DNA from: Chloranthus sessilifolius
Lineage: Eukaryota > Streptophyta > Magnoliopsida > Chloranthales > Chloranthaceae
NCBI GenBank assembly: GCA_021018995.1
Contig: CM037588.1
Location: forward strand, 96,198,765-96,262,764
Reading direction: 5' to 3'
Length of the DNA stretch: 64,000 bases
The notes under the pieces: model-generated
Database searches by the model: none
The model's input: the letters and a program-made list of their open reading frames with translations, nothing else
What the model was told of the DNA's origin: nothing
Part shown: one piece after another, positions 3,347-57,138 of the stretch
Layout of the letters: every line of letters begins with the position of its first letter
Position numbering within the stretch: the stretch's first letter is position 1
Program-made: the position numbers and the translations under genes

Positions 3347-3440
3347 GGGAAATTTACCTGATCGACCCTGTCAGATACTCCTTTCCCGCCAGATACCCTG
3401 TATTTTCACCTTTACCCAAACTGACCAGCTCCAAGCCCAG
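3347..3440 (+). repeat. left terminal inverted repeat of the MULE
   Basis: This is the inverted counterpart of 57045-57138. Both begin GGGAAATTTACC and end AGCCCAG. Weaker similarity continues to an AAATTACCCC block, which is where the Tat element is inserted. Confidence 0.85.
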
Positions 3441-3877
3441 CAGTCGCCTACTTTACGAAATGCCGAAATTACCCTGTAGACACCCAAATTTGACCCCAAG
3501 GCCCGATCGAAACACATTTCGAGAGAGGCGCATTTTTGAGCTTTTGATAGCATGTATGGAACCCTTAGAAATCATCCCAAACCCTTAGGAATCACCCTAG
3601 ATCCCTTAGGAACCTATCCCGAACCTTTGAAAACCAGTCCCGACCCTTAGAACCCATCCCAAACCCTAAACCTAACCTTCCCGGACAATGGATGAGGAGG
3701 GGTGCACCAGAACTAGCTACGGCCCTCTACAACAATTAAGTCCTATACCATTGAGGAGTAGAGGTTGTCAGCTTTCCGACGGTCCAAGAATCGCCCCAAT
3801 CGGAGGTCTACATCAAAAGATATAGCAAACCGGGCTCGGAGGGCATATATGTAAATACATGGGGCCCCTTAAGAACT

Positions 3878-4099
3878 TGGCGCAACTAATAGTTGCTCCA
3901 GCAATAAACTTTGCCTGCCGCAACTAATAGTTGCACCAGGCCAATTCTCCCTCATTTTAAGCCTGGGACAACTAATAGTTACGCCAGATTCAAAAGGGGC
4001 CCGATCCTCGCGAGCTAACTTCCAGGCACTGTTCATTACTGTTTTACTGTACATTTGCCTGGCACAACTAATCGCCTGGCGCAACTATTAGTTGTGCCA
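3878..4099. repeat. palindrome cluster 1 (four copies, 5' LTR)
   Basis: Copies lie at 3878-3900, 3916-3938, 3964-3986 and 4077-4099, with a half copy at 4060-4073. The consensus is two 11-base arms, TGGCGCAACTA and TAGTTGCGCCA, around a single A or T. The cluster lies 280-500 bp upstream of the LTR TATA box. Start-to-start spacings are 38, 48 and 113 bp. Confidence 0.9.
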
Positions 4100-4382
4100 G
4101 GCATATGAATAGTAATTGTTGGATTTTGCCCTGAAAATCGTGATTGGGGTCTGACTTGTTGACCACCTTGACCTTTGGGGTGTGTTTTACTAGTTCTGCT
4201 GCACCCTTTTGAAGCCTATTTACACCCCTTTAAGTGGCTTAAGGCCTCACCCCATCATCCACCATTGGAGGACCTTCTCACACATTTCAAGACTCCAAAA
4301 ACCCTAGGAATCCTTAAATGTGAGATTACCTAATTGCTAAACTCATTTAGCTCCTAAGTAGCCTCCTAATCCACCCATTTCC

Positions 4383-4391
4383 TATAAATAG
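4383..4391 (+). promoter_or_regulatory. TATA box of the Tat 5' LTR
   Basis: TATAAATAG is preceded by C-rich and followed by GAGTCCCCCC. The same box is at 27043-27051 in the 3' LTR. Transcription of the element would start about 30 bases downstream. Confidence 0.75.
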
Positions 4392-5119
4392 AGTCCCCCC
4401 TCCCCTTGGTTTAGGGGTTGAGAATTTCTACCTAAGAGAGAAAGAGCTTAAAGTGAGAAGATCTTTCTCCCTTTGGTGCACACCCCCCATACAAATTCCA
4501 TAATTCACAAAACTCCTTTAGACCTTAGCATTTCATAGAAAATCCTTAGGTTAGGTGTGTGTGATCCCCTAGCCTCCCTTCCCTACCTCTTAGGTTCAAG
4601 CCTTAAGAGTTAGAACCCCACTCTCTACCATACAAAGCCTTCAAGAGCTCATCAAAGCAAGCCACGCAAGGCTCTCCTACGGTGCTACAAGGGCTCGAGG
4701 CCTCCGGCTCTCCCCTTTCTTCTCCTATCTCTTTCTAGCTCCCTCCATCCTCCCATTTGTGCCGTTACGCCGCCGACTTTTCAATAGGAACGGAGGGGCA
4801 CAAATAGGATTCAAAGCCCTTTTGGGTAAGAGGAAGCTATTTTCTTTTTTTTTTACTTTATTTTATTTTTAGCCATTAGTAGAGACCATGTTAAACGAGT
4901 TGATCAGGTGCTTAACACCTTCCCGATCGATAACCGAAGCCCCTACCCAAGAGCCTTTGGTGTGGACCGGATTCAGAGTCATATTTTTAGCACTTCGGTG
5001 CTCATAAAAATGAACTAGGTATCCCGAGACACCGAAAGCTCTAGGTGGCGACTCTATATTTTTTCGTTAGAGGGCGCATCGTCGCGACGGAATCGTCTCA
5101 ATTCCTACGGTTGCACAGA

Positions 5120-5956: not shown

Positions 5957-6121
5957 TAGCGCAAGTATTAGTTACGCCAGTATAAAAACACTGAATTTAT
6001 AACTGGCGCAACTAATAGTTGTGCCAGCTTTAAAATCCCAAGTTTTACCTTGGCGCAACTATTAGTTGCGCCAGTGTAAAATTGGTCCCCTGCAACCTGG
6101 GCGCATGTATTAGTTGCGCCA
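5957..6121. repeat. palindrome cluster 2 (four copies, leader)
   Basis: Copies lie at 5957-5979, 6004-6026, 6051-6073 and 6098-6121. Starts are exactly 47 bp apart each time. The 23-base motif is conserved, while the 24-base intervals between copies are clearly different from each other. Confidence 0.92.
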
Positions 6122-16875: not shown

Positions 16876-18375
16876 TTAGCGACCTAGCTCGCGCTTCAAA
16901 GCACTAATCTCAGCATGAAGGTCATCTTCCTGGACATTTCGTTCAGTCAGCCAACGACCATGCAAGCTCTTGAACCTCTTCCGATAAGAATCGACGGCTC
17001 CAAAAGCGACGCTCAGTGATCCCTTCAAACGAAGGACCTCACTCTCTATTGATTCTGCTCTAACCTTTTCATGTGCCAAAAGTTCATGCAGAAACCTTTT
17101 CTCATCCACCAGTAACTCGATGCGGGCTCGGAATGCAATCTCTTTCTTTAACCAGGGACCTCCAGTGTCAAAAATCTCTGATAAATCTAGACCATTGGCA
17201 GCAGGCTACTCAGTCAACAGCCAGGCCTCGTACTCAGGAGAATTCCTAACCAAGTCCCCCTGCTCAATATCACACATTAGTGTCGACTGACGCATCTCCC
17301 AAAGTGCGGAAATCCAATCTATGTTCGCAGAGGACCCCCTAGAAAAGATCAAATCACATAAAGGGGGTCTGGCCTCACAAGGCACCTGCTGAGGGCAGTC
17401 GAATTGACGCAACACTCGGAATGGGAAGTAAAAGGTGCTACTCGTCAGTCCTATGAGGGTGATGCCCTCGTGATCTCTACTACGAATTATCGGGAAGGTC
17501 AGGTCCAGCCAAGGGAGCCTCCATGTCAGATCGGCATCGATCAACCAAATTTTCAGAGCTGACATATCGCCCTAGGGGAGCAAGTGGTATTGACCCAGAA
17601 AGCATTGGACTACCTCGCCTCGGGCAATATAAAAGTGGGGCACGGGCCCCAAAACAGCAAAATTCTCACCCAACCAGACCTGAAGCAATAAGGGGCATCC
17701 CCGATGGCCCTCCACCATTCCCAAAGCAAAGGAATCAAGGCATCGATATATTTCGGCAAGCACTAAATGCATCATGGACCGGCCCGCCTCCAGCTCCGCC
17801 AAAATATCACAAACTATCAATGAGAAGCTCTCTCCCCCAGTGAAGAAAAGAATTTCAGAGATGAGACCGAGTGCTAGAGCTTTCAAGTTAAAAACATTCC
17901 TAACCGACAATATTTGGAGGCTTTCGTCACCAAAAAATTCTTTGAGGAATTTTAGCGAACACCTTGTGGGCCCCCCAATGAGACTTTTCTCATACTCGGA
18001 TTTCTTCAAACTGAGAGTAAGGTGAACGGATTTGGAATAGCCCGGCCAAGGCGTGACTCTTGCAAGGCCCCTGTGAAGCTTCAGGCCAGACAGTTTAGAT
18101 AGCTCCTCAAGGGTTGGGGTTAGCTCCAGCTTCCCAAAACTAAATATGTGGAGGTTCACATCCCAAAATGAAGCGGCGGCATGAAGAAGTTCCCACCGAA
18201 GGGGAACCTCTTGGAAGGAAGGAAGGCGAGATAGCCCAAGGCGGTCCAAGTCGGCGAGCTCAGTCTCATTCAAGCTCCCAAACCAGGCCGTTAAAATTTT
18301 GGGCCCTAAACCCAACAAGGGGGTAAAATTGGCTTCGGGCCCTCCGCGTAAGGGAGGGCTGGAAAGCGGGTCCAT
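16876..18375 (-). pseudogene. antisense ORF 1 of the Tat element, DUF7745-like
   Basis: A single frame of 500 codons on the minus strand, broken only by two TAG codons (at 17572-17574 and 17206-17208). The N-terminal half reads RWELLHAAASFWDVNLHIF, then FGKLELTPTLEELSKLSGL, the signature of plant retroelement accessory proteins that I recall as DUF7745, related to the plant mobile domain. The second half contains FRVLRQFDCPQQVP, typical near the end of this domain. The C terminus (VRAESIESEVLRLKG to DLHAEISALKRELGR) is a predicted coiled coil. The start at 18375 is chosen because a TATA-like box and a palindrome array lie just upstream. The function is unknown. It is not required for the retroviral cycle and is probably regulatory. 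Confidence 0.82.
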
Positions 18376-18543: not shown

Positions 18544-18710
18544 TAGTGCAACTAATAGTTGCACCAGTGCATTTCGGCCCCCTGTCTTGCATGGCGCAAC
18601 TAATAGTTGCGCCAGCACAAATTGGCCCCCTTTCTTGCCTAGCGCAACTATTAGTTGCGCCAGCACAAATCCGCCAAGAGTTAAACCTGGTACAACTAAT
18701 AGTTACGCCA
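18544..18710. repeat. palindrome cluster 3 (four copies, upstream of antisense ORF 1)
   Basis: Copies at 18544-18566, 18592-18614, 18640-18662 and 18688-18710 are spaced exactly 48 bp apart. The motif is the same as in the LTR. The 25-base spacers differ from one another. Confidence 0.93.
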
Positions 18711-33868: not shown

Positions 33869-33872
33869 GAGA

Positions 33873-34440: not shown

Positions 34441-34452
34441 GGATTACAAAGA

Positions 34453-36747: not shown

Positions 36748-36785
36748 ATCGGTACGTAATTTTCGGGGACGAAATTTTTTTTAGA

Positions 36786-36933
36786 GGGGGAGAATGTAAC
36801 GACCCTGATGATTTTTTTATTATCATTGAACCTTTGACTTTTGATGAGAAGCTGAGATTATGGAGAAGTGCCTCGAGCTCATTCTCTCATTTACATAATT
36901 TTCGAGGACGAAAATATTATAAGGGGGAGAGAA
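36786..36933 (+). repeat. two polypurine tract/LTR-start junctions in tandem
   Basis: AGAGGGGGAGAA followed by TGTAACGACCC occurs at 36786-36810. About 135 bases later AAGGGGGAGAGAA followed by TGTAACAAC starts the real 3' LTR. The same GAGGACGAAA phrase precedes both. The first looks like the start of a different LTR, cut short. Confidence 0.7.
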
Positions 36934-38413: not shown

Positions 38414-40975
38414 TGTAATATCTCGAAAATTTGGAGTTAAACAGTGACCTCGGGATCCGTGCCCGACTGGTCATAGGTTTGACCATGTAAGAGTTCACAA
38501 GTTAACGTAGGATAAGATGAACGGATGAGATGTGAGAATTTAAGTAACTGTGTGGAACGTGATGAAATCTGGAGCTATATACACCTCCTTCTAGTGTATG
38601 TGCTCAACACACGGGTTGAATGAGAAATAAAAGGGTTTAATAGCCCTAGTTCTTTTGTTTGGTTGTTGAGAGAGAGTAAAGAAGAGAGAGAGAGAGAGAG
38701 AGAGAGGAGAGCATAGTTAATGCAAGGAGTAATGGTGGGTGTTTGGAAGGGGGATTCAAGCATTTAAAAGGCCGATTCGATACGAAGGATCCGTTCAAGC
38801 CAAAGCTGGAACCCTAGCCTTTCCAACCCCTTTGACCATATCAATTTCAGATTGATTGAAGGTAAAATTTTATAAATTTAATGCATAGGTTACAGAGGTT
38901 TAAATTCAGTCAAATATGTTTTAAATGATAGATTAAGTACTTAGAAAAATAAAGGAAAAAGAGTAGGAAAAGATTTGGAAGAACAACCCAAAGGGGGGCT
39001 AAATCTGGCCAAATCGATTAATCGAAATCAGGTTTCGATTAATCGATTTTCGCCAAGAAGTTGAAAAGTCAAAGAACCCAAATTCGATTAATCGAATTGA
39101 GTTTCGATTAATCAACTTTGAATTTCGATTAATCGATTTTGGTGTCGATTAATCGACTGGGAACCTCCAGTGGCTGGAGGAAAGTGACCTGGGGAAATCG
39201 ACTAGTTGAAATGGGATTTCGATTAATCGATTTTGAGAATTCGATTACTCGAATTGAGAATCGAATTGATAGATTAGAGAGTTTCGATTAATCGATGTGG
39301 GATTCGATTAATCGAATGGGGATCTCGATTAATCGATTTTGGGAATCGATTATTCGATTTTGATCAAATGGGGATCTCGATTAATCGATTTTGGGAATCG
39401 ATTAATCGATTTTGAATTTCAATTAATCGATTTTGGGAATCGATTAATCGAATCAATTTTGATTAATCGATCTTGGAGTTCGATTAATCGACTGACTTAA
39501 AATTTGTTGACTTTTTAGTTTGACTTCAAGATTTTCGAGGGGTCTTGGACCTTCCTTATTGCATCTTTAATGATGTGTTGCATGTGTTATGTTGTACCAT
39601 AGGTAGTACGTATGATCATAGGCACAAGGAGCCACGTGGGACCTTGATGCGTGAATTATCAGAGATTTGAGGTAGGGAACACCTTGAACATGTACTTTAA
39701 TTTGCAAGAGCATGTATGTAGTGATATAGAATCAAATTGAAAACTGTTTTATTGCTTAAAGTTTTGTGAAAAGTATGTGTGAGTGACACCAATAAGAGGA
39801 TATAATGATGAGCCATCCCCAGGGGATGAGGAAGTGATTTAATAAGAGCATCAGGTGTGATGCAAGGGAATAGATACATCCCAGGGATGTATCTAGGATT
39901 GAATAATGTCTGATAGGGCCTAACTGATAAAAGATATCACACTTAGATGGTGAATAACTATATGTAAAGCACCTGATATTTTTGTTATTTGAGGTTTGAT
40001 AGGATACCCCACCGACGTGGCAGGATACCCACGACTGACGCGACAGGATATCTGTGACCAATACGGCGGCGAAACCGTAAGCTAGTACGGAGGCATATCC
40101 GTACACAATAAGCACACCCCAGGGGTGTTGAATTGAGATAAGTTGAAACCCCACCACCGATCCCCAGGGGAAAGGAGCTTGGGTACTAATTGTATTTCCA
40201 GGGAATACGTTTAAAACTGTCTATATAGATGACTATGAAGGGTATCTCATCGGGGCTCGATGCTATATTGCTCAGGGATTACTTAAGTTGAAAGGTTAAG
40301 TTTTGCTTTAGGCCTAGTCAGTATCATTCATGAGAAATTAAAAGACATGTGTAAACTACTAGTAAAATGTGATGCTTTTCGACTGTTTTTCTTAGTAATT
40401 GCATAGATACATCATGCATGACATATCATGGAATATATGTGAGTTTTAATTTATATGTTCACTGTGTTTTGTTCCCTATTGAGCTATGATGTAGCTCACC
40501 CTTTAGACTATACGTCGCAGGTCCACTATTAGCAACGAGGCTTGAGGGCGTTGACCACAGTGGGTCGGACCTTGCGCCTGGTGACGAGTTGGAGCCGCCT
40601 CCGGAGGACTTCTTTTAGAGGACTCCGTTGTGCACCTTTGAGAGTTTTGTGAGCGTATTTGGTACGGCTTAGTATGTCAAGCCTTGTTTTTGATTAAACA
40701 ATGTAAATAAATATTGGGATTATTCTTTTGGGCGAACCATCCTTGATGATCAGCTGTTATCGATGGTTCGGGCCGGTTCTCCATTCATGCAGAGGCATGA
40801 AGGTAGAACTGTCTTTTGAGTAATATATAAATGGTGATTTATTTTGCAGTCCTATTTATGTTCTTTCCATTAGTGTTGCTTGATATACCAGTGTTCCATG
40901 CGTAGTCAAGGGGCATGGTCAACATGATCGTGCTGATGGCATGGGTTTCGAGGTGCAGAAATTTGGGCTATCATA
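38414..40975 (+). repeat. 5' LTR of element C (2562 bp) with TCGATTAATCGA array
   Basis: Counterpart of 49082-51588. It contains a (GA)n run (38685-38706) and a probable splice-donor-like GATTGAAG|GTAAAA near 38860. About twenty exact or near copies of the 12-base palindrome TCGATTAATCGA lie between 39014 and 39492, mostly at 20-21 bp steps (for example starts 39084, 39104, 39125, 39145). Confidence 0.92.
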
Positions 40976-40977
40976 GT

Positions 40978-40990
40978 TGGTATCAAAGCC
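40978..40990 (+). other. primer binding site of element C
   Basis: TGGTATCAAAGCC, two bases after the LTR end, is the tRNA-iMet type. Confidence 0.8.
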
Positions 40991-41066
40991 ATTTCTTTTA
41001 GCAAATCTGACAATCATTCATTTTGTCAGAACATAGGGACTTCTGCTAACGAAACCTTAGTTTCAA

Positions 41067-42459
41067 ATGCAGCCGCCAATATCATCTAGGGGAAGAGGCC
41101 GACCGAGAGGAGGCCGACAGAGAAGTTTACGTAGTGGTGATGATTACATCTCTCCTTCCAATCGAGTACCCTTGGGAAGGAGTGAGGCCCCAGGGGGCAG
41201 CAGTAGTAGAAAACAAGAGGAAGAGGATCGAGATCGTCATGATCAAGATCTGAGAGAACAGGAGAGAGTGAGAGAAAGACAGGAAGATAGAGAGGAGCGC
41301 CAAAGGATGATGCACACCATGGAGACTATGGCAGCTGCCATGGCACAACAAGTCGCATCCTTTGCAGCTCATGCAGCAAGAGAGCAGCAGCCACCTACAC
41401 CACCTGTAGGACCTACATTGCATGTGCCTTCGTCTTTTACTGAGTTTAGGAGGATGAGACCTCCTACGTTTTCTAGGCAGGCAGACACGATGGCAGCAGA
41501 AAACTAGTTGATGGAAATAGACAAAATATTTAGCGTGCTGACATGCACGAAAGATGATAGTGTTAGATGGGCAGCCTACATGCTAGATGGGGAGGCTGGG
41601 CCTTGGTGGAAGTCCGTGATACGGAATAGGGCCCAGGAGACCCCAGAGTTGCCATAGACTTGGGAGGAGTTTGTTGAGGAGTTCAACAAACAGTATTTTC
41701 CAGAGGTGGTGAGAAACCAAATGGAGATTCAGTTTCTACGGTTAGGGTAAGGGAGGATGAATGTGAGAGAGTACGGAGTGGAGTTTCTACGACTTGCCCG
41801 TTTTGCTCCTGATTACCTCGCCACCGACGTGATGAAATCAAAGAGGTTTCAGCAAGGCTTGAAGCCTGAGGTTAGAGGAGGAGTAGATCCATTTCAGTTG
41901 AGGACCTATGAAGAGGTCATGAGCAAGGCACTAGTTGTGGAAGAGGAAAATAACAGCAGATATAGACAGAGAGAGCAACAAAGAGGAAGCAATGATCAAG
42001 GAAGAACGGGAAACTACGAGTTGGTGAATAAAAAGCCGAGGTTCGTGGCCCAAAATCAGAGACCACAGTTCCAGGGAGGTTTCGGAAGACCGACGTAGCA
42101 GCACAACCAACAGAGATTTCCACTACTTGCGTCGGGGAGACCTTTATGCTATGAGAGCCCTGCCATGTCTACTGGCGCTACCGTCACACAGGGTTCTCGT
42201 ACAATTTCTTTCGCACCTCGAGAGACTTGTGCCAAGTGTGACAAGCCTCACAGGACCGTGGATTACAGAGTGGGAACTAGGGGTTGTTTTCGATGTGGCA
42301 AGGTGGGCCACTTGATCAAGGATTGCCCCGAGGTTGATAAGGGGAAGACGGCTTCAGTTGCAGCGCCACGACCCATTCAAGCACGGAAGTCAATCGTTCA
42401 TGGAAGAGCCTATGCAGTCACTGCTTAGGAAGCAAGGAACATGCATGACGTCATCCAAG
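41067..42459 (+). pseudogene. gag: gag of element C (one frame, five stops)
   Basis: Starts MQPPISSRGRGRPRGGRQRS. A charged coiled-coil region (REQERVRERQEDREERQR) is followed by the gag core (FRRMRPPTFSRQAD, GEAGPWWKSV, FVEEFNKQYFP, NVREYGVEFLRLARFAP). The CCHC knuckle CFRCGKVGHLIKDC (about 42280-42325) is intact. Stops lie at 41505, near 41655, near 41748, at 42096 and 42426, without any frameshift. The last codons before the predicted intron are DVIQ plus one base. Confidence 0.9.
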
Positions 42460-42626
42460 GTGAGATTTTCATTTAAATAAAGGGTTGTAAATTCCTTGAA
42501 AATTTTAGATAGAGAAGGTGCATTCATTAGGAAATAGTGTAGATTATTTTCCAAACACTGAATTTGTACGTGAATTAGGGGTGTAAATTGATATGTAAAT
42601 TATTGTATGTATGTATGTATACTATA
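42460..42626 (+). other. predicted gag-pro intron of element C
   Basis: Donor CCAAG|GTGAGA and acceptor CTATAG|GTACGC are both GT..AG. Removing 167 bases joins DVIQ to GTLTIYEKG through a split Gly codon. The same position has an intron in elements A and D. Confidence 0.75.
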
Positions 42627-45600
42627 GGTACGCTAACTATATATGAGAAAGGATGCTTCATTGGATATGATGCCAGGTTCTACACACTCATTCGTCACTC
42701 CACGATTTTCCAAGAGGATGAAGATTATTCCAGAGGCGTTGGATTTTGTCCTATCTGTATTTATTCCAACTGGAGAGTTAATGGACACGGAGCTAGCTTG
42801 CAAATCCGTCATTGTAGCAATTCAAGACCTAGAGGTGCATGAATTGGAGGCAAAGTTGATACTACTGGACATGCAAGGGTTTGATGTGATCCTTGGCATG
42901 GACTGGTTGGCACAGAATTGTGCGACGGTCAATTGCAAGAACAAGGTTGTCGTCTTCAAACCCAACACAAGAAGATCATTTCGATTTCAAGGAGTGAGGT
43001 CATCACGTATGCCACTGATCTCAGCAGTAAGGGCCGAGCGGATGATCAGGAAGGGTTGCAGTGGATACTTGGCTTTCTTAAAGGAGGATAAGGAAGAAAA
43101 GAACATCATCTCTGATATAGCAGTTGTGCGAGACTTCGCCGACATTTTTCCAAAAGAGTTGCCTGGATTACCTCCAGAGAGAGAAGTAGAATTCGCCATT
43201 GACTTAGCACCGGGAACGGAGCCTATTTCAAAAGCACTATATAGAATGGCTCCTGCTGAGTTGAAGGAGTTGAAAGAGCAACTACAAGAGCTCATGGATA
43301 AGGGGTTTGTCAGATCGAGCGTGTCTCCGTGGGGAGCACCGGTCTTGTTTGTTAAGAAGAAAGATGGGTCAATGCGTCTATGCATTGACTATTGACAACT
43401 GAATAAACTCACTGTCAAAAACTGTTACCCTTTGCCTAGAATCGACGATCTGTTCGACCAACTGCAAGGAGCGAGGTATTTTTCCAAGATCGACCTAAGA
43501 TCTAGATACCATCAGTTGAGAGTTAAGGCAGAGGACATCCAGAAGACAGCTTTCAGAACACTGTATGGACACTATGAATTCCTTGTAATGCCGTTTGGGT
43601 TTACGAATGCTCTAGTGTCGTTTATGGATCTGATGAATCGAGTGTTTAAACCACACTTGGACTCCTACGTAGTAGTATTCGTTGATGATATTTTGATATA
43701 CTCCAAATCCAAGACGGAACACGAAGAACATTTGAAGATTGCTCTACAGACGCTACATGAACACCAATTGTACGCCAAACTCAGCAAATGTGAGTTTTGG
43801 TTGGAAGAGGTTAGCTTTTTGGGACATGTCTCAAAGCACGGTGTCACTATAGATCCAGCAAAGATAGAAGCAGTGGTTAAATGGGAGAAACCAAAGACAG
43901 TGACCGATGTCCGAAGTTTTCTTGGGTTGGCAGGCTACTATCGACGTTTCGTCGAGGGGTTGTCAAAGATATCGGGACCTCTCACGAAGCTGACACGAAA
44001 GGATTCGAGATTTGAGTGGAGTGAGGCATGCGAGAAGAGTTTTCAAGAACTCAAGACGAGACTCACTTCAGCTCCAGTGCTAGCGATTCCTTCAGGCAGT
44101 GGAGGATATGCAGTGTACAGCGATGCGTCATACAATGGTTTGGGTTGCGTGCTCAACCAACACAAGAAAGTGATAGCTTACGGGTCAAGACAGCTGAAAG
44201 AACACGAGAAAAATTACCCGACTCATGACTTGGAGCTAGCAGCAGTCATTTTTACGCTGAAGATTTGGAGACATTACTTGTATGGTGAGACGTTTGAAAT
44301 TTTCACCGATCTTAAGAGCCTCCGATACCTGTTTACACAGAAAGAGCTCAACTTGAGACAGTGCAGATGGATGGAGTTCCTTAAGGACTATGATTGTTCT
44401 ATATAGTACCATCTAGGCAAGGCTAACGTAGTAGCCGATGCTTTGAGTCGGAAGAGTTTAGCTCAGTTAGCTTGTTTGATTTTGGGTATGCACCGGTGGA
44501 AATTATTGGAAGACCTGGCACTCTATGATGCAAACATTGAGTCGAGAGCTACAGGATCCTTTTTGGCTAACATATCAGTGAGACCAGTAATATTTGAGCA
44601 TGTCCACGATCTACAGATGAAAGATCCGACGTTAACAAAGATTCATCAAGACGTGATTGAAGGCATCAGGCCGGACTTCTAAGTGAAAGAAGATGGTTCT
44701 TTATTGTTTAAGGGCCGTCTTTGCATCCCGGACAATGTCGAGCTAAGACGAACGATTCTTGATGAAGCCCACAAGTCAAATTATGCAATCCACCCTGGTA
44801 GCACCAAAATGTACCAAGACTTGAAAAAGAACTATTGGTGGAGAGGTTTGAAGCAAGACGTGGCCGAATACGTGTCACGGTGTTTGACCTGTCAGCAGGT
44901 AAAGATTGACCATAGGCATCTTGCGGGACTATTGCAGCCTTTACCAATACCAGAATGGAAGTGGGAATCGATCTCGATGGATTTCATTGTTGGATTACCG
45001 CGTACTGCGGGAAGACTGGCACAGCTATATATGAAGGAGATTGTCCATTTGCATGGGATTCCGAGTAGCATTGTTTCGGACCGTGACCCATTGTATACAT
45101 CAAAGTTCTGGAAGAAATTTCAAGAAGGAATGGGAACGCGACTAGATTTCAGTACGGCATTCCATCCACAAACTGACGGACAGACTGAAAGGGTCAATCA
45201 AATTATCGAGGACATGCTTAGGGCATGTATGTTAGAGCTACAAGGATCATGGGATCAGCACCTACCTTTGATTGAGTTTGCATATAACAACAATTTTCAG
45301 ACGAGCATTAGGATGGCACCATATGAAGCACTCTACAGATGGCGATGTAGATCGCCCATTAATTGGGAAGAAACTGGTGAGAAGTTTATTTTGGGACCCG
45401 AAATACTTGAAGATAATGCCGCCTATATTCGTATGATAAGGGCAAAACTTAAAGCGGCGCAGAGCAGATAGAAAAGCTACGCCGATATCAAGCGGACGAG
45501 TGTAGCCTACAAGGTGGGTGAACACGTGTTTGTTAAGGTGTCACCTATGAAGGGGGTGATGAGATTTGGAAAGAGAGGGAAGCTAAGTCCCCGCTATCTT

Positions 45601-45939
45601 GGACCATTTGAGGTTTTGGGACGAGTAGGGGAAGTTGCTTACCGTATTGGATTGCCACCGTTGTTCAATTCAGTACACAATGTCTTCCACGTATCAATGC
45701 TTAGGAAGTACATTAACGACCCTGACCACGTGTTGAGCAGTCAAGAGTTAGAGATGCATGAGTACATGACCATGATCGAAGAGCCGATGGAGATTTTGGA
45801 TCGAAAGAAACAAGTACTACGAACAAAAGTGATTCCACTCGTACTTGTCAGATGGAACCATCATCCGGCCGAGGAAGCTACATGGGAACGAGAGGCCGAT
45901 GTGAAGGAACAATATCCAGCCTTGTTTCCAACCACTTGA
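42627..45939 (+). pseudogene. pol: pol of element C: protease, RT, RNase H, integrase, chromodomain
   Basis: From 42643 on, one frame with stops at 43393, 44404, 44680 and 45469. The protease retains [12 protein letters not shown], but the usual active-site Asp two residues before Gly is not seen; a small frame disturbance lies just before it. RT shows [19 protein letters not shown] and the catalytic box FVDD (about 43678-43690). RNase H ends NVVADALSRKS. Integrase has HKSNYAIHPGS..CLTCQ and the DDE residues (SMDFIVGLP, SDRDPLYTS, QTERVNQ), but about 25 residues are missing between GLPRT and RLAQLY. The tail (VRWNHHPAEEATWE) is a Tekay-type chromodomain, which targets integration to chromatin. 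Confidence 0.93.
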
Positions 45940-46157
45940 GAGTCAATTATACCCCTGCAAGCGTGTTTATGGATTTTGACAACACTTGTAAACCAATGTA
46001 AAATTTTGATCAAAGTATGACATAGAAAAAAATTTTATATACACACATGACCGTGATGATGTGTTTTGTAGAACCAAGGATCATTTGATATCATAAATTA
46101 CCAAGATAAATAAAATAAACAGAGAAATTTGAAAACCAACAGACTTTGATCAAAACT

Positions 46158-46945
46158 GATTAATCGATTTTCAAATCGATTAATCGATTTTCAAATCGAT
46201 TAATCGATTTGGAAATTCGATTAATCGATTTTGTTCGATTAGTCGACTGGCATGTGCCAGTGACTGGGAACTTGAATGAGGATTAGGAAAATGACAGAGT
46301 GAAATTTTGATTAATCGATCTTGGTTTCGATTAATCGATTTGGGTTTTCGATTAATCGAATTAAGGGTTCGATTAATCGAACAAATTGAGAATTTTAGAA
46401 GAACTTAGAGGGATTTTATGAAATTTCGATTAATCGAGGAGGAATTTGATTAATTGATTTATGGTTTCGATTAATCGAATTGGAAGTTCGATTAATCGAT
46501 TAACTTAAGGAAATTAGAAAATTTGAAGTATGAGAAACGATTTCGATTAATCGAAGTGAAATTCAATTAATCGATTTGAGATTTCAATTAATCGAATCAT
46601 AGTTCGACTAATCGAGTAATTAAAAGAATCCTGAAATTTTTGGAAGGGACTGCACGATTTCAATTAATCGAAGTGAATTTTTGATTAATCGAAGTGAATT
46701 TTTGATTAATCGATTTTGGAATTTCGATTAATCGAAATGGATTTCGATTAATCGACTGGCTTGCGCCAGTGAGCTCAAAAAAAACTCAAAAAATTTAACG
46801 GATACGATTTCGATTAATCGAAATGGTTTCGATTAATCGATTTTGAGTTTTGACTAATCGATTTTGGAAATCGATTAATCGATTTTGTGCGGCTTGACCT
46901 AGTTTTGAATCTCGATTAATCGAGATTGGATTTCGATTAATCGAA
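46158..46945. repeat. TCGATTAATCGA palindrome array upstream of the accessory ORF of C
   Basis: More than twenty copies, exact or with one or two changes, grouped at about 20-bp steps (for example three in a row from 46176). Sub-blocks end with a short hairpin CTGGC..GCCAGTG (46246-46262 and 46756-46772). The array stops directly before the TATA-like box at 46953. Confidence 0.9.
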
Positions 46946-46952
46946 TTTAAGC

Positions 46953-46966
46953 CTATATATATAAAT
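46953..46966 (+). promoter_or_regulatory. TATA-like box of the accessory ORF of C
   Basis: CTATATATATAAAT is followed by a C/T-rich leader with AAACCCTA motifs and the ATG at 47199. It suggests an internal promoter separate from the LTR. Confidence 0.5.
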
Positions 46967-47198
46967 TTTGGGGATTTTGCTCCCCATTCGAAATCATTTG
47001 GGTTTTTGTGTTTTGGGCGCCATTTCTTCTTCTCCTTCTCCAACCAACCGAGCACTCTAGGGTTTGCATTTTCTGTCAATGTTTGGATCGGATTCAAGTA
47101 CCATCACATCCAAAACCCACGGTAAACCCTAAATTTGTGTTTTTTTTTTTTTTTCAAATTGAGTTAGAGAAACCCTAGTTTCTTGAATTTTCACCAAA

Positions 47199-48734
47199 AT
47201 GCCGCCGAAAACCGGGTTGTCTTCGGCAAGGGCAACCTCTAAACTCTCGGTCTGGCGTAAGAACGCCGCACCGCCACCACCTACCCCTTCACCGGTGAGG
47301 ACTCCATCACCGTCGGCATCGGAGACCACCTCCGGTTCGACGAGTGCGTCTTCACACGAGTTTTCACGTGAATCTACCCTCATGCCGCCACCACCCACTA
47401 ACGTACTATAACCCAATGAGTGGTGGGAGGCGAAGACCTTTGAGGTCGAGTATGACATTGACCCAACCCTCTTTACGAACCCCGATGTACCGGGCGAGAC
47501 CCAATGGGCTTGCAACTACCTCCGAAATGTCGGTCTCAGAAACCTTCTCAAACCAATCTGGGGTTCCTACTACCTTAGGTTAGTTAGATTGTTTTACCAA
47601 GGGCTCGTAGACGGCCCTACCGACGACGTGATTAAGACCACCATAGAGGGTCGAGAGTACATAATCACCCATCGCCACATACACGAGGTACTCGAGTGTT
47701 ACCTCGATTTCACCCCAGAGACCACCCTCTTCCCACCCTTTGAAGAGGAAGTTAAATTTGAAGAGATTATGACCCGCATGACTAACGAGAAAAAGGGGTC
47801 AGGATCCTCCATCAAGAGGGTCGACCTTCCCCACTACATGTGGATGCTTGATTTCATCATCAAGTGTAACCTCTACCCATTGCGGCACGACACCAAGCGG
47901 ATAGAGATGGTGCAGCAGGAACTATATGAGGCCTTTTGTGGCCGTTGGTTCGACGCAACCATGCTCATCCTAGAAGGGATGAGATACATAAAAGGTAAAT
48001 TGATGAAGGGCAACTTAAGGTCCAAGGAGAAAATGTCATATGCTCGGCTGATCTCGAGCATGTTGGAGTGTTACTCCAACGCTCCCGAGTATGCGGTATC
48101 GCCCCATGAGGTGCGGGCGATGGACCGAGTGAAGACATTTTCAAAGTCGTCATGGAGCCGTAGCTATAACTTGTTGAAGCGGACCCTACCGGCTCCGGGT
48201 CCAGTTCCAGCAGTAGCAGCAGCAGCAGTATCACCACCACCACCCCCACCCCCACCACCACATCAGGACCCACCCGTGGGTGGGGCACACCCTGTTGAGC
48301 CAGCAGCGGAGGGGGCGCCCTCCCATACCATCGTTTCCCCTACACCGCCAGCATAGTCTGCGCCAATTACACCCACGTCATCCTACCGCCGGCGAGCAGC
48401 TCACTCTAGTCCTACCGCCGAGGATGTGTTGGCACGCATGGAGGCCAACAACGAGTGGATGAACTGGAGGATGGACTTCCTTATGTTCCATACCCTCCGC
48501 TACATCTACCCGTTGGACTACCAGCGGCATTTAGCTCAGGAAGAGGAGTGGACCGCGGGACGGACTGCCTTCCATAGGGGTCCCGTCTTCCGTCCGACCA
48601 CCGCGGCTACCGATGCAGCATGCTCCGCACCCCAGCCGCCGGAGCACCCTACAGAGCCACCCCAGCCACAGCAGCCAGCCCAGTCAGAGCAGCCTGCTCC
48701 TACACCAGATCAGCCACCAGAGGGGACGGCTTGA
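47199..48734 (+). pseudogene. accessory ORF of element C, 'putative plant transposon protein' type
   Basis: One frame of 511 codons with only two stops (TAA 47409, TAG 48354). It has a Ser/Pro-rich N terminus, then a globular domain (WGSYYLRLVRLFYQGLVDG, IEGREYIITHRHIHEVLECYL, MLDFIIKCNLYPLRHDTKRI, GRWFDATMLILEGMRYIKGKL) resembling the plant transposon-protein domain I recall as Transposase_32, found in many retroelement accessory ORFs. A Pro-rich linker, a short helix (MEANNEWMNWRMDFLMFH) and a Pro/Gln-rich tail follow. It is encoded on the same strand as pol, unlike the Tat antisense genes. A leader with a TATA-like box and a palindrome array lies upstream. The function is unknown. Confidence 0.72.
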
Positions 48735-49081
48735 CACCGAGACGAGGATCTTTTTGTATTACCCATTTTGGGAGTTTTGATGTAATTCAAAAGCTGTAAA
48801 CAACAACTGTAATTTTGGAAATATAATGAAATACAAAAATAATTTTGTATATTTATGATCATTGATTTTCTTACATTCTGTCATGTGTCGTCATTTTCTT
48901 ACATTCTGTAATGGTTTTGTAAATTTTCTCATGCAATTATATTTTTATGCTATGTGTGTGTCTGTACTCTATTGTGTTAAACAACTGGTCCACCTCACAC
49001 AAGTGTGGGGGGGGGAGGGGGGCAAACCAGACCGACGCCCTTGGATTATTTTCGGGATGAAAATTCCCAAGGTGGGGAGGA
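48735..49081 (+). other. 3' untranslated region and polypurine tract of element C
   Basis: AT-rich sequence after the accessory ORF. It includes a G-run GTGTGGGGGGGGGAGGGG (49004-49021) and the final tract GGTGGGGAGGA (49071-49081) directly before the LTR. Confidence 0.75.
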
Positions 49082-49347
49082 TGTAATATCCCGAAAATTC
49101 GGAGTTAAACAGTGACATCGGGATTCGTACCCAACTGGTCATAGGTTTGACCATGTAAGAGTTCACAAGTTAATGTAGGATAAGATGAACGGATGAGATG
49201 TGAGAATTTAAGTAACTGTGTGGAACGTAACAAAATCTGGAGCTACATACACCTCCTTCTGGTGTATGTGCTCAACACACGGGTTGAATGAGAAATAAAA
49301 GGGTTTAATAGCCCTAGTTCTTTTGTTTGGTTGTTGAGAGAGAGTAA

Positions 49348-49386
<39 letters not shown>

Positions 49387-51588
49387 AGAGCATAGTTAAT
49401 GTAAGGAGTAATGGTGGGTGTTTGGAAGGGGGATTCAAGCATTTAAAAGGCCGATTTGATACGAAGGATCCGTTCAAGCCAAAGCTGGAACCCTAGCCTT
49501 TCCAACCCCTTTGACCATATCAATTTCAGATTGATTGAAGGTAAAATTTTGTAAATTTAATGCATAGGTTACAGAGGTTTAAATTCAGTCAAATATGTTT
49601 TAAATGATAGATTAAGTACTTAGAAAAATGAAGGAAAAAGAGTAGGAAAAGATTTGGAAGAACAACCCAAAGGGGGGCTAAATCTGGCCAAATCGATTAA
49701 TCGAAATCAGGTTTCGATTAATCGATTTTCGCCAAGAAGTTGAAAAGTCAAAGAACCCAAATTCGATTAATCGAATTGAGTTTCGATTAATCGACTTTGG
49801 ATTTCAATTAATCGATTTTGGTGTCGATTAATCGACTGGGAACCTCCAGTGGCTGGAGGAAAGTGACCTGGGGAAATCGACTAGTTGAAATGGGATTTCG
49901 ATTAATCGATTTCGAATTTCGATTAATTGATTTGGGATCAATTAATCGATTTTGGGAATTTGATTACTCGAATTGAGAATCGAATTGATAGATTAGAGAG
50001 TTTCGATTAATCGAATGGGGATCTCGATTAATCGATTTTGAATTTTGATTAATTGATTTTGGGAATCGATTAATCGATCTTGGAGTTTGATTAATCGACT
50101 GGCTTAAAAATTGTTAACTTTTTAGTTTGACTTCAAGATTTTCGAGGGGTCTTGGACCTTCCTTATTTCATCTTTAATGATGTATTGCATGTGTTATGTT
50201 GTACCATAGGTAGTACATATGATCATGGGCACAAGGAGCCACGTGGGACCTTGATGCGTGAATTATCAGAGATTTGAGGTAGGGAACACCTTGAATATGT
50301 ACTTTAATTTGCAAGAGCATGTATGTAGTGATATAGAATCAAATTGAAAACTATTTTATTCCTTAAAGTTTTGTGAAAAGTATGTGTGAGTGACACTAAT
50401 AAGAGGATATAATGATGAGCCATCCCCAGGGGATGAGGAAGTGATTTAATAAGAGCATCAAGTGTGATGCAAGGGAATAGATACATCCCAGGGATGTATC
50501 TAGGATTGAATAATGTCTGATAGGGCCTAACTGATAAAAGATATCACACTTAGACGGTGAATAACTATATGTAAAGCACCTGATATGTTTGTTATTTGAG
50601 GTTTGATAGGATACTCCACCGACGTGACGGGATACCCACGACTGACACGGCAGGATATCCGTGACCGATACGGTGGTGAAACCGTAAGCCAGTGCGGAGG
50701 CATATCCGTACACAGTAAGCACACCCCAGGGGTGTTGAATTGAGATAAGTTGAAACCCCGCCACCGATCCCTAGGGGAAAGGGGCTTGGGTACTAATTGT
50801 ATTCCCAGGGAATACATTTAAAACTGTCTATATAGATAATGATGAAGGGTATCTCATCGGGGCTCGATGCTATATTGCTCGGGGATTACTTAAGTTAAAA
50901 GATTAAGTTTTGCTTTAGGCCTAGTCAGTATCATTCATGAGAAATTAAAAGACATGTGTAAACTACCAGTAAAATGTGATGCTTTTCGACTATTTTTCTT
51001 AGTAATTGCATAGATACATCATGCATGACATATCATGAAATATATGTGAGTTTTAATTTATATGTTCACTGTGTTTTGTTCCCTATTGAGCTATGATGTA
51101 GCTCACCCTTTAGACTATACATCGCAGGTCCACTATTAGCAGCTGCTGAGGCTTCAGGGGATGTTGACCCTGGTGAGTCGAACCTTGCGCCTGGTGACGA
51201 GTTGGAGCCGCCTCCGGAGGACTTCTTCTAGAGGACTCCGTTGTGCACCTTTGAGAGTTTTGTGAGCATATTTGGTACGGCTTGGTATGTCAAGCCTTGT
51301 TTTTGATTAAACAATGTAAATAAATGTTGGGATTATTCTTTTGGGCAAACCATCCTTGATGATCAGCTGTTATCGATGGTTCGGGCCGGTTCTCCATTCA
51401 TGCAGAGGCATGAAGGTAGAACTGTCTTTTGAGTAATATATAAATGGTGATTTATTTCGCAATCCTATTTATGTTCTTTCCATTAGTGTTGCTTGATATA
51501 TCAGTGTTTCGTACGTAGTCAAGGGGCACGGTCAAGATGATCGTACTGATGGCACGTGTTTTGGGGTGCTGAAATCCGGGTTGTCACA
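49082..51588 (+). repeat. 3' LTR of element C (2507 bp)
   Basis: Counterpart of 38414-40975. Its (GA)n run is longer (49353-49382) and its TCGATTAATCGA array (about 49693-50100) has fewer units than in the 5' LTR. Confidence 0.92.
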
Positions 51589-53009
51589 TATGTTCACCAT
51601 TATTATATGACATTCACCATGTAGAAAATCACGATAGGGCATACACATATAAGTTAAGAATAAGATATGACACATGACATAAGCCTTCGTCACGGTGGGA
51701 TTTCTTTCACGATCACGTGAAACTTGGAATGTTGGCATCCATGTATGGATGCAACTCCTCTATGGTAGTATGGGATGCCACACGAAGTACATCCAGGTTA
51801 CTACGAAACCCGTCCCTTGGAAAGCGTAGTTTAGTGAAGTCTATCGCACCGTAGCCCATTCTAACTAAGTTTTTTAAAAAATAAGAAAAGAATATGTTAA
51901 TACACATGTATGTTAAAAAAGTGGGGACTTAAGCCCACGTAAATATGAAATTGGGGCAAGGACCTAAGCCCATAACTGAATAATGTTATGATATGTTAAG
52001 AAACGTTGTGAAGGTCAGCTGAATACGAATTAAGTTCTACACGTGTCATACCTTACGAGCTACCGTAAGGGTCTAATGTCTACAGCTGAGACAAGTCTTA
52101 AGGATATTATAGCCTTATCTCGAACTAAGGGGACATCGTAGTTACTATGCCGGCAACCTCATCTGGCTGGATGGTGATTTATGTTATGATATGGAGGTTA
52201 GGTAATTATCTTCACGTGGACCTCACATGATAGGCTCGAGCAGGGATCCTGGCACGGATCGTTTAAATAAGATAAGATGCGAAGTACATTGTGTAGGCGT
52301 ATGGAGCATCATGTACCATTCATGTTATAATATGCTTTTCAGTTAGATTATGATATGCTATGAGTTATGGATAATTTAGTCATTTTATTTAAATGTTAAT
52401 TTTAGTTTCAAAATACACTGTAACTCAAGCGATTGTACACACGATCACTTGGGTAAGTTATGGTGCATCGATTGTACAACCCACTGAGTTTACGCGACTG
52501 AGTAAACTCACCCCGCTCCCAAAATCTAACAGTTTCAGGTGAAGATTATGCTTATCCCGTCCTTGATGATACGAAAGTTGTTGATTCAAAGATGGCTCAC
52601 ATAAATGAGGATGTCGGATATCACATAGATAAAATTGTAGACCCAACAGACTTTTACCAACATTGAGAACCTTTTACTCTAGTTTTTCCTTTATTTCTTG
52701 AGAGGCATATTTTAGCCTTGATACATTTTGTGAGTTTACGTTTGGGATCATTTTACCCTACATGAAACTGGTTTAATTTTTTTATCCTAGATGCATAATT
52801 AGGATTAAGTGCTTCATTATTATTGTCTGCGTTTTCTGTTATTAATTTATGAGTCATTTATCATTTAATGTTTTCTTAAAGGCTTCAATCCATATGGCAA
52901 GTCAATTTATAGATTATGTGTATGTCCGCTTATCGCCTTAACCAACGTGCGGTGTCATAACACGGAATTCTAAGCCCTTGATATCGGGTAAGGATTCTAG
53001 GTCGTGACA
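51589..53009 (+). repeat. 3' LTR of element B, second part
   Basis: Resumes at TATGTTCACCATTATTAT, the counterpart of about 32385 in the 5' LTR, and ends GGTCGTGACA before the target duplication GCCCA. Confidence 0.88.
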
Positions 53010-53014
53010 GCCCA

Positions 53015-56000: not shown

Positions 56001-56100
56001 TACAATACTTGTAACAGGTAGATTGGCTCTAATTACAGTAATAAAAATGAAAACTATGCACTTTTTTTTAAATTAAAAAAATATAATAATAATAATGGTC
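53015..56100. other. CACTA interior, right part: no recognised gene
   Basis: AT-rich. A short frame at 53979-54248 resembles nothing I know. Contains a (TC)n run (54450-54475), a 38-bp perfect palindrome (54849-54886) and homopolymer runs near 55170 and 55900. Confidence 0.4.
54849..54886. repeat. 38-bp perfect palindrome without spacer
   Basis: The left arm TATATAAGCCAACAAATGT is followed directly by its exact reverse complement. Confidence 0.95.
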
Positions 56101-56407
56101 CATAACCGCTGTTTCTGGAGTAATTAACAACGGTTCATTGGCGTTGTTTATATATACCACTGACTTAGGCTGTGGTTTCTAAAAAAAAATAACAACTATT
56201 TTTTTGTTAGGAACAACAGCTCAAAATCGTTGTTAACTTGGAACGGACATGGGTCGTTGTTTATTTGGTAAATAAACAACGGTTTTTGGCCGTGGTTTAT
56301 GAAAACCACTGTACTATAAACAGCGATCGTTACCATGGCTCAAAACCGTTGTTTATGACATTTATAACGGTTTTAGGCCGTTATTTTTTATCGATTTTCA
56401 CGTAGTA
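56101..56407. repeat. right subterminal repeats of the CACTA element
   Basis: Repeated AACAACGG/CCGTTGTT(T) blocks in both orientations at short intervals, ending in TTTTCACGTAGTA. Weaker versions lie at 29095-29165. Confidence 0.75.
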
Positions 56408-56410
56408 AAA

Positions 56411-57044
56411 TGAGGACAAAAGGCTACATTGTTGGGAAGATGTTGGAAAGCAAGGTATGATGTCTATTTAAAAACTTCAAATTTCTAAAGGTAAGGACTG
56501 TAAAGAGTAAATCGAAAGATTTCGACTCCGTAATCAGTCGATATTGACTGCCTATACAGTCGTTATCGACTTCCTACGCAGTCGTTATCAACTATGTAAA
56601 CAATCATTATCGATTGTATATAAAATCGATATCAACTGTTTATACAATCGATAACGATTGTGTATAAAAGTCTTTATCAACTGTTTCAAAATATTTATCT
56701 AGTAAAATTAATTTCCCAAAATAAAATTATGTTTCTTATACTTCACCATTGTATTTCTAAAAAACTTTCGATGGGGTTTACACTAGATCTGAACATACCT
56801 TGCGTTGCAATGGAAAACTGCAGGATCTTTAACTCCCAATGGACAAATGCAGGAGCTTCTTCTCCCAAGCCTTTGTTTTCTTCTTCCAAGTAGCAAATCT
56901 AAGGCAGAAAACGTCGTCACCTTCACCACCTCTAACTTCTTACTAACTCTAGCAGATTAAAATGAGGAAGAAGGGGATGCATTCGTGGGTTAAAGAAAGT
57001 CAAAGAAGGGGGTAATTTGGACTTTTTATTCTCTATAGGATCAA
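56411..57044. other. right part of the MULE: gene end, motif array, subterminal DNA
   Basis: 56411-56454 continues the DUF1985-like reading. 56515-56695 holds about eight units of the MULE inverted-repeat motif (forms such as CAATCGATAACGATTG and CAGTCGTTATCGACT) at 22-bp steps. 56700-57044 has no gene. Confidence 0.7.
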
Positions 57045-57138
57045 CTGGGCTTCGAGCTAATCGGTTTGGGTAAAGGTGAAAATATAGGGTCTCTGGCGGG
57101 AAAGGTGTATCTGATATGGTCGATCAGGTAAATTTCCC
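57045..57138 (-). repeat. right terminal inverted repeat of the MULE
   Basis: Inverted copy of 3347-3440, followed directly by TTCTTAATT. Confidence 0.85.

Follow-up and report, generated by a model that had tools for sequence, protein, structure and literature searches.

Accessory genes preceded by family-specific palindrome arrays in three nested transposable elements of Chloranthus sessilifolius

Within a 64,000-nt stretch of Chloranthus sessilifolius DNA (contig CM037588.1; hereafter the window), a MULE, a Tat-type LTR element and a Tekay-like LTR element that we call C are each marked by arrays of a different symmetric motif, and each of the four accessory genes that were found (PMD-1 and PMD-2 of Tat, and one gene each in C and the MULE) has an array upstream of it. 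The first-pass annotation had proposed that these elements combine an accessory gene with arrays of their own motif, and that they do so as three separate insertions with three different motifs; both proposals were borne out. Its further suggestions, of a general rule and of accessory proteins that regulate, and perhaps de-silence, their own family, stay at the level of hypotheses. Our best explanation, to which we give a probability of about 45%, is self-encoded regulation, in which the arrays would be clustered sites read by the element's own accessory protein.

Structure of the nest

The outer ends of the whole nest are the termini of the MULE (3347-57138). Its terminal inverted repeats (left, 3347..3440, plus strand; right, 57045..57138, minus strand) are 94 bp long and 90.4% identical, and a 9-bp target duplication, TTCTTAATT, flanks both sides, directly outside the left repeat. 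The MULE contains the Tat-type element and, separately, an element B (30932..53010, plus strand), and C (38414-51586) is inserted into the right LTR of B. Tat is flanked by the duplication TACCC and has its LTRs at 3475..5117 and 26152..27773 (both plus strand); its coding regions match Retrotrans_gag, Ty3_capsid and RT, which places it on the gypsy side and thus not in Ty1/copia. Also of gypsy type, and not Ty1/copia, are the RT, RNase H, integrase zinc domain and chromodomain in the pol pieces of C (43396..45939), which lie between LTRs at 38414..40973 and 49082..51586 (all plus strand). The chromodomain, at the integrase end, matches PF00385 (1.2e-5, 25.5 bits; cut-off 25.1), while the Tekay label itself is that of the first-pass annotation.

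In element B, a truncated relative, the last pol domain to be recognised stops near 36500, some 430 bp short of the 3' LTR. Neither gag nor protease was found in B, the scan of its plus strand gave no accessory gene, and it has no palindrome family. Set beside the three elements of the window with accessory gene and array, B is the sole relative without a detected accessory gene and is also without an array, as a truncated and single case.

Each motif is nearly confined to one element

The Tat motif, GGCGCAACTAWTAGTTGCGCC, has 19 copies at ≤3 mismatches, with 19/19 inside Tat and none in 100 shuffles. Four copies stand in the 5' leader (5958..6120) at steps of 47-48 bp, and 48-bp steps separate the four copies upstream of PMD-1 (18545..18709, minus strand) and the three upstream of PMD-2 (24386..24502, minus strand). 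Each LTR holds four more, with steps of 38, 48 and 113 bp in the 5' LTR (3879-4098) and of 38, 48 and 97 bp in the 3' LTR (26555-26758). The C motif, TTCGATTAATCGAA, is found inside C in 60 of its 62 matches (shuffle mean 4.7, largest 11), and 43 of the 57 within-array steps measure 19-22 bp. Its copies fall in the 5' LTR (18 at 39013-39492), the 3' LTR (15 at 49692-50099) and an internal array (46162..46945, plus strand; 27 copies counted at 46175-46945) upstream of the accessory gene. One module, made of four palindromes and a CTGG-N6-CCAGTG separator, is common to the LTR arrays of C and to the array beside its gene.

In the MULE, nine copies of a AATCGATAACGATT-type inverted repeat follow one another in exact 22-bp steps at 28017..28206, and the same type of motif recurs with 22-bp steps in the right subterminal region (56518..56682; five copies at 56558-56659). 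Counting both strands, this motif matched 38 times across the window, against a shuffle mean of 8.1 and a maximum of 14. Of these matches, 24 fall in the MULE, with 23 of them inside the two arrays, six elsewhere and eight in the C arrays, the latter because the MULE and C motifs share letters. Counted as places, 15 of 23 lie in the MULE, so that this is the least clean of the three motifs and the one with the weakest confinement. A motif-blind palindrome scan recovered the C and Tat families with 45 and 15 members, the largest cluster in 100 shuffles being of 2-4; for the MULE it gave four members only, a value equalled in 2 of the 100 shuffles. The significance of the MULE array rests on its 22-bp tandem order.

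Observed/expected CpG ratios were 2.4-3.0 in the C arrays and 0.28-0.91 in the four Tat arrays measured; the MULE arrays are CpG-rich, like those of C. Searches of viral_contigs gave zero matches both for the C motif pair and for the Tat motif.

Accessory genes

The two Tat genes are antisense coding regions on the minus strand, between pol and the 3' LTR. PMD-1 (17206..18375, ATG at 18375) has one in-frame stop between two PMD pieces, which match Pfam PMD with E=1.2e-8 in 17572-18459 (35.0 bits, cut-off 34.9) and 4.8e-4 in 17206-17571. PMD-2 (22354..23378, with a predicted first exon and ATG at 23378) turned up below the array at 24.4 kb that had had no known gene, and matches PMD with 1.9e-12 over a stretch (about 22558-22998) that spans an in-frame stop. 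No antisense TRP28 domain (PF04195), the feature expected of Retand within Tat, was found at E≤0.05 in the minus frames of 15300-17250 and 18720-24370, read with X at stops, or in the ORFs of 17206-18745. The presence of PMD points to an Ogre-like lineage.

Both remaining genes are broken, lie on the plus strand and have Pfam matches below the curated cut-offs. The C gene (47199..48734, ATG at 47199, in-frame stops at 47409 and 48354) matches Transposase_32 with 2.7e-5 and 24.6 bits (cut-off 45), and the DUF1985-like gene of the MULE (28296..28961, in-frame stops at 28413 and 28611) matches DUF1985 with 1.9e-4 and 21.9 bits (cut-off 35.1). At E≤0.05, the MULE remains showed no DUF287 in six X-at-stop frames, a search less sensitive than that of single pieces (DUF1985 falls to 0.0022 in it), and no Pfam transposase (VANA) in the six frames of 27776-30931 and 53011-57044 of this decayed copy.

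Homologue searches, in a database presumably poor in plant proteins, confirmed 0 of 1105 candidates for the C protein and 0 of 314 for that of the MULE, numbers that are no measure of rarity, and 1 of 3848 for PMD-1: P0001, a DUF7745 protein with 30% identity. P0001 itself gave no confirmed match in genome_contigs or viral_contigs, nor did the RTs of C and Tat in viral_contigs, and a sequence search of the PDB (E≤1) returned nothing for PMD-1 or the C accessory protein.

Position of the arrays

In three of the four accessory genes, the array is followed within 9-29 bp by a TATA box. That of C, TATATATATAAA (46954..46965, plus strand), starts 9 bp past the last palindrome; the MULE has TATAAA (28223..28228, plus strand) 17 bp past the last motif copy, and PMD-1 has TATATA (18511-18516, minus strand) starting 29 bp from the array edge. 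The GC-matched chance of such a TATAWA is 0.018, 0.029 and 0.009, respectively; counting against the pattern, TATAWA occurs within 30 bp also at 2 of 16 other array edges or directions. For PMD-2, there is no TATAWA within 382 bp of the array, which lies about 1 kb from the ATG, and in the Tat 5' LTR a TATAWA stands 285 bp downstream of the motif copies. The placement 'at promoters or ends' given by the first-pass annotation is correct in that arrays precede genes and occupy LTRs or subterminal regions; it needs qualifying for the LTR arrays of C, which have no TATAWA within 700 bp downstream, so that a promoter role there is unsupported.

Cores are conserved and spacers are not

Comparison between copies gave core/spacer identities of 0.87/0.43 (near pairs) and 0.87/0.41 (far pairs) for C, 0.85/0.43 for both kinds of pairs for Tat, and 0.75/0.49 (near) and 0.72/0.50 (far) for the MULE, whose set includes the right copy at 56536 with >3 mismatches. 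Two control tandem repeats of the window gave 0.92/0.84 and 0.86-0.91/0.91-0.97. Since the cores are kept and the spacers are not, unlike in the two controls, the arrays look like retained protein-binding sites, and we regard the palindromes as candidates for such sites. A cluster of seven palindromes at 7465-7670 was rejected as regulatory, being a 24-bp repeat inside long ORFs, and was used as control. Between the two LTRs of one copy, that is, after insertion, core and spacer diverged equally (0.094/0.094 in C, 0.095/0.093 in Tat).

In C, the spacing keeps to two turns of the helix (R=0.72 for a 10.5-bp period; n=43, from the 5' LTR and internal arrays), and that of Tat is about 4.57 turns. 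The idea that all arrays lie on one face of the helix is therefore true for C and fails for Tat, with no common helical rule. Mirrored changes in the half-sites were not clear, the value being reached in 352 of 5000 shuffles for C and 1742 for Tat; the mirror and spacing tests left out the 3' LTR copies of both elements as duplicates. CpG decay in the C LTRs (cores 7/28 versus rest 25/62; Fisher p=0.23) was uninformative on methylation.

What may read the arrays

Under self-encoded regulation, the arrays would be clustered binding sites for a DNA-binding protein with two-fold symmetry, and the likeliest binder would be the element's own accessory product, of PMD type in Tat, Transposase_32-like in C and DUF1985-like in the MULE. 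Placed on the array before its own gene, such a protein would set its own expression; placed on the arrays of LTRs or MULE ends, it might open them or shield them from silencing, mainly in copies of its own family, as VANC does for VANDAL MULEs. An anti-silencing outcome, rather than plain activation or repression, is what we would predict. Supporting this reading are the confinement of the motifs, the core/spacer identities, the position of the TATA boxes, the finding of PMD-2 below an array, the shared module and helical spacing of C, element B with neither gene nor array, and the precedents of VANC21 and the Sireviruses. It is weakened by the below-cut-off Pfam matches of C and the MULE, by PMD-2 and the C LTRs without nearby TATAWA, by the helical mismatch of Tat, the unmirrored half-sites and the MULE motif matches in C arrays, and also by the Sirevirus exceptions, the same-orientation motifs of VANC21 and the role of the host PMD proteins MAIN/MAIL1, which act in silencing and are not known to contact chromatin (PMC9899485, in part).

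Alternatively, though with a lower probability, host transcription factors could bind the arrays, so that the element switches on its LTR and accessory gene together while the accessory protein does something else. Stress-box arrays are reported to play such a part in other LTRs, and the core/spacer pattern and the TATA position indicate a binding site, not whose it is. According to the accessible part of Bousios 2010 (PMC2829016), Sirevirus boxes mainly gave sites for stress factors, with no single common factor, and LTR boxes are present in four elements without ENV; genes that go down in host PMD mutants share one 'DOWN' promoter motif, possibly that of another factor (PMC7156037, PMC9899485, both in part). 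Against host factors, three nested elements in the same host bear three different motifs and B none; the copy numbers (27, 18 and 15) or the strict spacing of 22 bp may also exceed what such factors need.

We consider it improbable that the palindromes act as RNA or DNA secondary structure, with symmetry serving for pairing and hairpins that feed small-RNA silencing or serve the RNA life cycle. Array transcripts do fold beyond shuffles (z of -11.5 for C internal, with 20 shuffles, -8.7 for the Tat 3' LTR and -10.5 for the MULE), but since folding is common to all palindrome arrays, the z-scores cannot serve as a test. According to the account of Bousios 2016 in the available text of PMC10760457, small RNAs are drawn to the palindrome clusters of maize Sireviruses; for an element, to be targeted for silencing would presumably be costly and not a reason for keeping arrays. 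The full-length RNA of C or Tat would include the internal arrays of that element. In three of the four accessory genes, a TATA box follows the array, which would then be left out of the accessory transcript, provided that this box is used. Letters are kept and not pairing alone, with core identities of 87% in C and 85% in Tat.

Ordinary minisatellites, made by slippage and functionless, with accidental palindromy and position, are a disfavoured and highly improbable reading: the C array does differ in size between the LTRs (18 versus 15 copies, with indels), the internal C array has larger units of 117-119 bp, and, among Retand elements with recent activity, about half show tandem repeats in the stretch from pol to the 3' LTR (PMC11963269, accessible part), but the spacers of near copies are poorly kept (0.43, 0.43 and 0.49 versus 0.84 and 0.91-0.97 in control repeats), core and spacer diverge equally between LTRs, and clusters of 45 and 15 palindromes face 2-4 in shuffles.

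Self-encoded regulation also has a wider form, which we put forward as doubtful: both transposon classes may have built, repeatedly or via one exchanged protein superfamily, a dimeric regulator (of PMD, DUF1985 or Transposase_32 type) together with palindrome arrays that are specific to the family and located at the regulator's own promoter and at LTRs or ends, as a private anti-silencing or activation channel. Our estimate for it was lowered slightly because six ENV-containing Sireviruses have no boxes (PMC2829016, in part). If true, VANC-type control would extend to LTR retrotransposons, and there would be an explanation for extra ORFs that have long been puzzling, namely those with the plant mobile domain, the antisense ones and the ENV-like ones. 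Counts of extra ORFs in plant LTR retrotransposons come to almost 4000 (PMC11728184), and their function is described as an open question (PMC7264820; both in their accessible text). Were each protein to read the palindromes beside its own gene, its target site could be read from the element sequence, which would open the question of function to direct test; such proteins would be sequence-addressed chromatin regulators, a selfish counterpart to MAIN and MAIL1 as host silencing proteins (PMC5418596, in part).

Comparison with known systems

Within the window, the MULE shows VANDAL-type features: inverted ends, a 9-bp duplication and a motif in noncoding tandem arrays. Its terminal inverted repeats measure 94 bp, whereas VANDALs are not known to have long ones, and two of the three elements here are, unlike VANDALs, LTR retrotransposons. 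In the available text on the Arabidopsis VANDAL/VANC system (PMC5735166, PMC10398659), the element encodes an accessory protein with DUF1985, for which our MULE offers a broken gene with a below-cut-off match, and, as here, a short motif that differs by family forms tandem arrays in noncoding parts, there including introns and upstream regions. VANC21, a member of the protein family depicted with DUF1985 and DUF287, binds the tandem motifs carried by its own TE family, from which it removes methylation; its motifs are reported as same-orientation arrays and not palindromes (PMC5735166, in part). Binding and methylation loss are demonstrated there and would be predictions here, and a one-way 9-mer there contrasts with an inverted repeat here.

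A parallel to C is that sunflower Tekay elements have a conserved extra ORF and that a 3' ORF of sunflower Athila has a Transposase_32 match, with nuclear signals predicted in that work (PMC11728184, accessible part). In sunflower Tekay, this ORF stands 5' and matched no known domain, whereas that of C is on the 3' side, and 'palindrom' has 0 occurrences in the main text of that paper.

The first-pass annotation was not aware of this arrangement in LTR retrotransposons; for the layout, a precedent exists in the Sireviruses (Ty1/copia), with palindromic repeats in LTRs and upstream of ENV (Bousios 2010, PMC2829016, here and below in its accessible part). As in C and Tat, boxes cluster in the LTRs and again just upstream of an extra (ENV-like) gene; copies are many (8-32 there), clusters are CpG-rich, as here in C and the MULE, and the element Tnd-1 uses ACAATCGATTGT, which resembles the MULE and C motifs. 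Among 13 box-bearing Sireviruses, copies precede the gene's place in 9/9 with ENV and 0/4 without, but the latter four keep LTR boxes and at least six other elements with ENV have none, which weakens a strict gene-array rule. Sireviruses differ in superfamily and extra gene, and in their CGG-CCG core, which neither the C nor the Tat motif has; their boxes are similar across distant Sireviruses, and the authors favoured host factors as the binder.

For antisense ORFs of Retand/Grande/Ogre-type Tat elements, a regulatory, DNA-binding role has already been proposed; Grande gene23 has its own promoter, and PMD is present in 57% of Ogre elements (PMC11963269, PMC7264820, PMC6317226). The accessible text of these three papers gave no link of repeats to antisense promoters. 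The layout reported here is, then, known from Sireviruses, and what appears to set our element apart from the Tat elements described in those texts is the presence of two PMD genes per element, each with an upstream array, and of the same motif in the LTRs and the leader.

Nested elements and their palindrome arrays

Self-comparison and junction reading showed that the window is plant DNA with transposons nested in one another. The outermost is a MULE (3347 to 57138), with inverted ends 90.4% alike over 94 bp and a 9-bp flanking duplication, TTCTTAATT. Two elements lie within it. One, a Ty3/gypsy element of Tat type, has LTRs at 3475-5117 and 26152-27773 (distance 0.069) and is flanked by the duplication TACCC. 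The other is element B (30932-53010), with an LTR distance of 0.095 over the compared part only; its right LTR contains element C (38414-51586; gypsy pol plus chromodomain; LTR distance 0.053). By LTR distance B is older than C, in agreement with the nesting, which demands the same order. Given this nesting and the junctions, MULE, Tat and C are separate insertions. A Tat ORF past gag (10680-11306) has a G-patch domain (3e-7). More gag-bearing retroelement fragments, cut by the window edge, lie at 1-3343 and 62066-62737; a motif-blind scan found no palindrome family in them, and bin 2001-2500 of the left fragment has eight single palindromes.

The Tat motif occurs 19 times in five places (5' LTR 4, leader 4, 18.5 kb 4, 24.4 kb 3 and 3' LTR 4), and the C motif 60 times (5' LTR 18, internal 27, 3' LTR 15). 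Allowing up to three mismatches across the whole window, 19/19 Tat and 60/62 C matches fell within the owner, while the maxima in 100 shuffles were 0 and 11, respectively. The motif-blind scan recovered 45 members of the C family and 15 of the Tat family (2-4 in shuffles). The proposal of one symmetric, family-specific motif per element therefore stands for Tat and C and is weaker for the MULE, which holds 15 of the 23 places of its motif. On two strands, 8 of 38 MULE motif matches lie within C arrays, because both motifs have letters in common. The motif-blind scan gave only four MULE members, and support for this family rests on tandem order: nine copies in exact 22-bp steps at 28017-28206, plus five at 56558-56659. 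CpG observed/expected ratios were 2.4-3.1 in the C (39013-39492, 46162-46945 and 49692-50099) and MULE arrays (28017-28206 and 56518-56682), compared to 0.70 in the window, with no such enrichment in the Tat arrays.

Element B is a relative of C (66% in a 710-bp stretch of the RT-RNase H region) and has neither a palindrome family in the motif-blind scan nor an accessory domain in its plus-strand frames. The recognised pol domains of B stop near 36500, leaving some 430 bp to the 3' LTR. B is hence a negative case, although a single and truncated one, without gag, protease and most of RT.

Arrays upstream of accessory genes

As the first-pass annotation had noted, each of MULE, Tat and C combines an accessory gene with motif arrays. 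The arrays lie upstream of the genes and also in LTRs or ends. In Tat, an array starts 170 bp upstream of the first antisense PMD gene (ATG 18375, minus strand), with TATATA 29 bp from the array edge. In the MULE, the array ends 90 bp upstream of the DUF1985-like gene (ATG 28296; two in-frame stops), with TATAAA 17 bp past it. In C, the 27-copy array ends 254 bp upstream of the accessory gene (ATG 47199; two in-frame stops; Transposase_32 2.7e-5, below cut-off), with TATATATATAAA 9 bp past the array. With array edges and the TATA-box pattern (TATAWA) chosen by us, the GC-matched chance of an equally near TATAWA was 0.018 for C, 0.029 for the MULE and 0.009 for the first PMD gene; 2 of 16 other array edges or directions had one within 30 bp. 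Since nearly all noncoding internal DNA of C lies upstream of the gene, array position alone is weak evidence there, and TATA spacing is more telling. In C, a single module, made of four palindromes and TCGACTGG-N6-CCAGTG, is repeated in the gene-side and LTR arrays (39083-39220, 46175-46310, 46659-46815 and 49762-49900). The promoter of the accessory gene may have arisen from the LTR, or the LTR from that promoter.

A minus-strand scan below the 24.4 kb Tat array, where no gene was known before, extended the observation by one gene: a second PMD gene (22354-23378, minus strand; PMD match about 22558-22998, E=1.9e-12). Its likely first exon has a probable start at 23378. The array lies roughly 1 kb away and has no TATAWA within 382 bp. 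The minus-strand stretch 20381-20746, with no Pfam match taken alone, is possibly a later part of this gene. Another Tat array (5958-6120) lies in the leader, past the 5' LTR and ahead of the first ORFs; there is no TATAWA closer than 350 bp to it.

Possible binders and core conservation

Having the same sites by the putative promoter of the accessory gene and again in the LTRs or ends is the layout of a regulator controlling itself. From sequence, we give a probability of roughly 0.45 to the arrays being bound by a protein encoded in their own element. Binding by host factors is a less likely explanation; for the comparable Sirevirus boxes no single binding factor was found, and the authors turned to stress factors (accessible text of PMC2829016). 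Action as RNA or DNA structure seems improbable: array transcripts do fold (z -8.7 to -11.5), but the same is expected of any palindrome array.

That the arrays are neutral repeats is very improbable, since neutral duplication should leave core (the motif) and spacer equally alike among copies, and they are not: near copies gave core versus spacer identities of 0.87 and 0.43 in C, 0.85 and 0.43 in Tat, and 0.75 and 0.49 in the MULE, with much the same values for far copies, while two control repeats kept both (24-bp repeat in long ORFs, 0.92/0.84; 27-bp repeat at 11895-12031, 0.86-0.91/0.91-0.97 across 13 core choices). The 24-bp control, a minisatellite (CCAAGGGCCCATGG; 7432-7897) in the proline-rich 5' ORFs of Tat, is palindromic, yet its spacers are conserved. 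The pattern suggests that the arrays are sites, not MINISATELLITES. Between LTRs, that is after insertion, the contrast is gone (core and spacer differences 0.094 and 0.094 in C, 0.095 and 0.093 in Tat), so the cores were probably kept during the active life of the elements and have begun to decay since.

Comparison with known systems

Our search of the open-access literature found nothing on LTR retrotransposons in which PMD or Transposase_32 genes are linked with cognate palindrome arrays, and on the motifs only bacterial work. The layout is nevertheless partly preceded: the accessible text of Bousios 2010 (PMC2829016) describes palindromic boxes in the LTRs of 13 Sireviruses, and linker boxes upstream of ENV (77/79), present in 9/9 ENV+ and 0/4 ENV- elements (Fisher test p=0.0014, counting box-bearing elements only). 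Six Sireviruses have ENV without boxes, with CpG islands at the same place, and count against a strict rule. This counter-case and the weaker MULE figure lower the odds of a general reading across plant transposons, which we consider doubtful. For Retand, the available part of Vicient 2025 (PMC11963269) reports antisense ORFs with a suggested regulatory role, TRP28 in 97% of clusters, and about half of the elements carrying tandem repeats. Whether extra ORFs of LTR elements shape methylation is a question raised, citing VANC, in the part available of PMC12844716. In MULEs a system with a regulator controlling itself is real, as described for VANC21 and VANC6, and a DUF1985 protein can be an anti-silencer (accessible text of PMC5735166 and PMC10398659). 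Self-regulation would be a plausible interpretation, in part anticipated by earlier work. The CpG-rich C and MULE arrays resemble the CpG islands of the Sirevirus boxes, whereas the Tat arrays differ.
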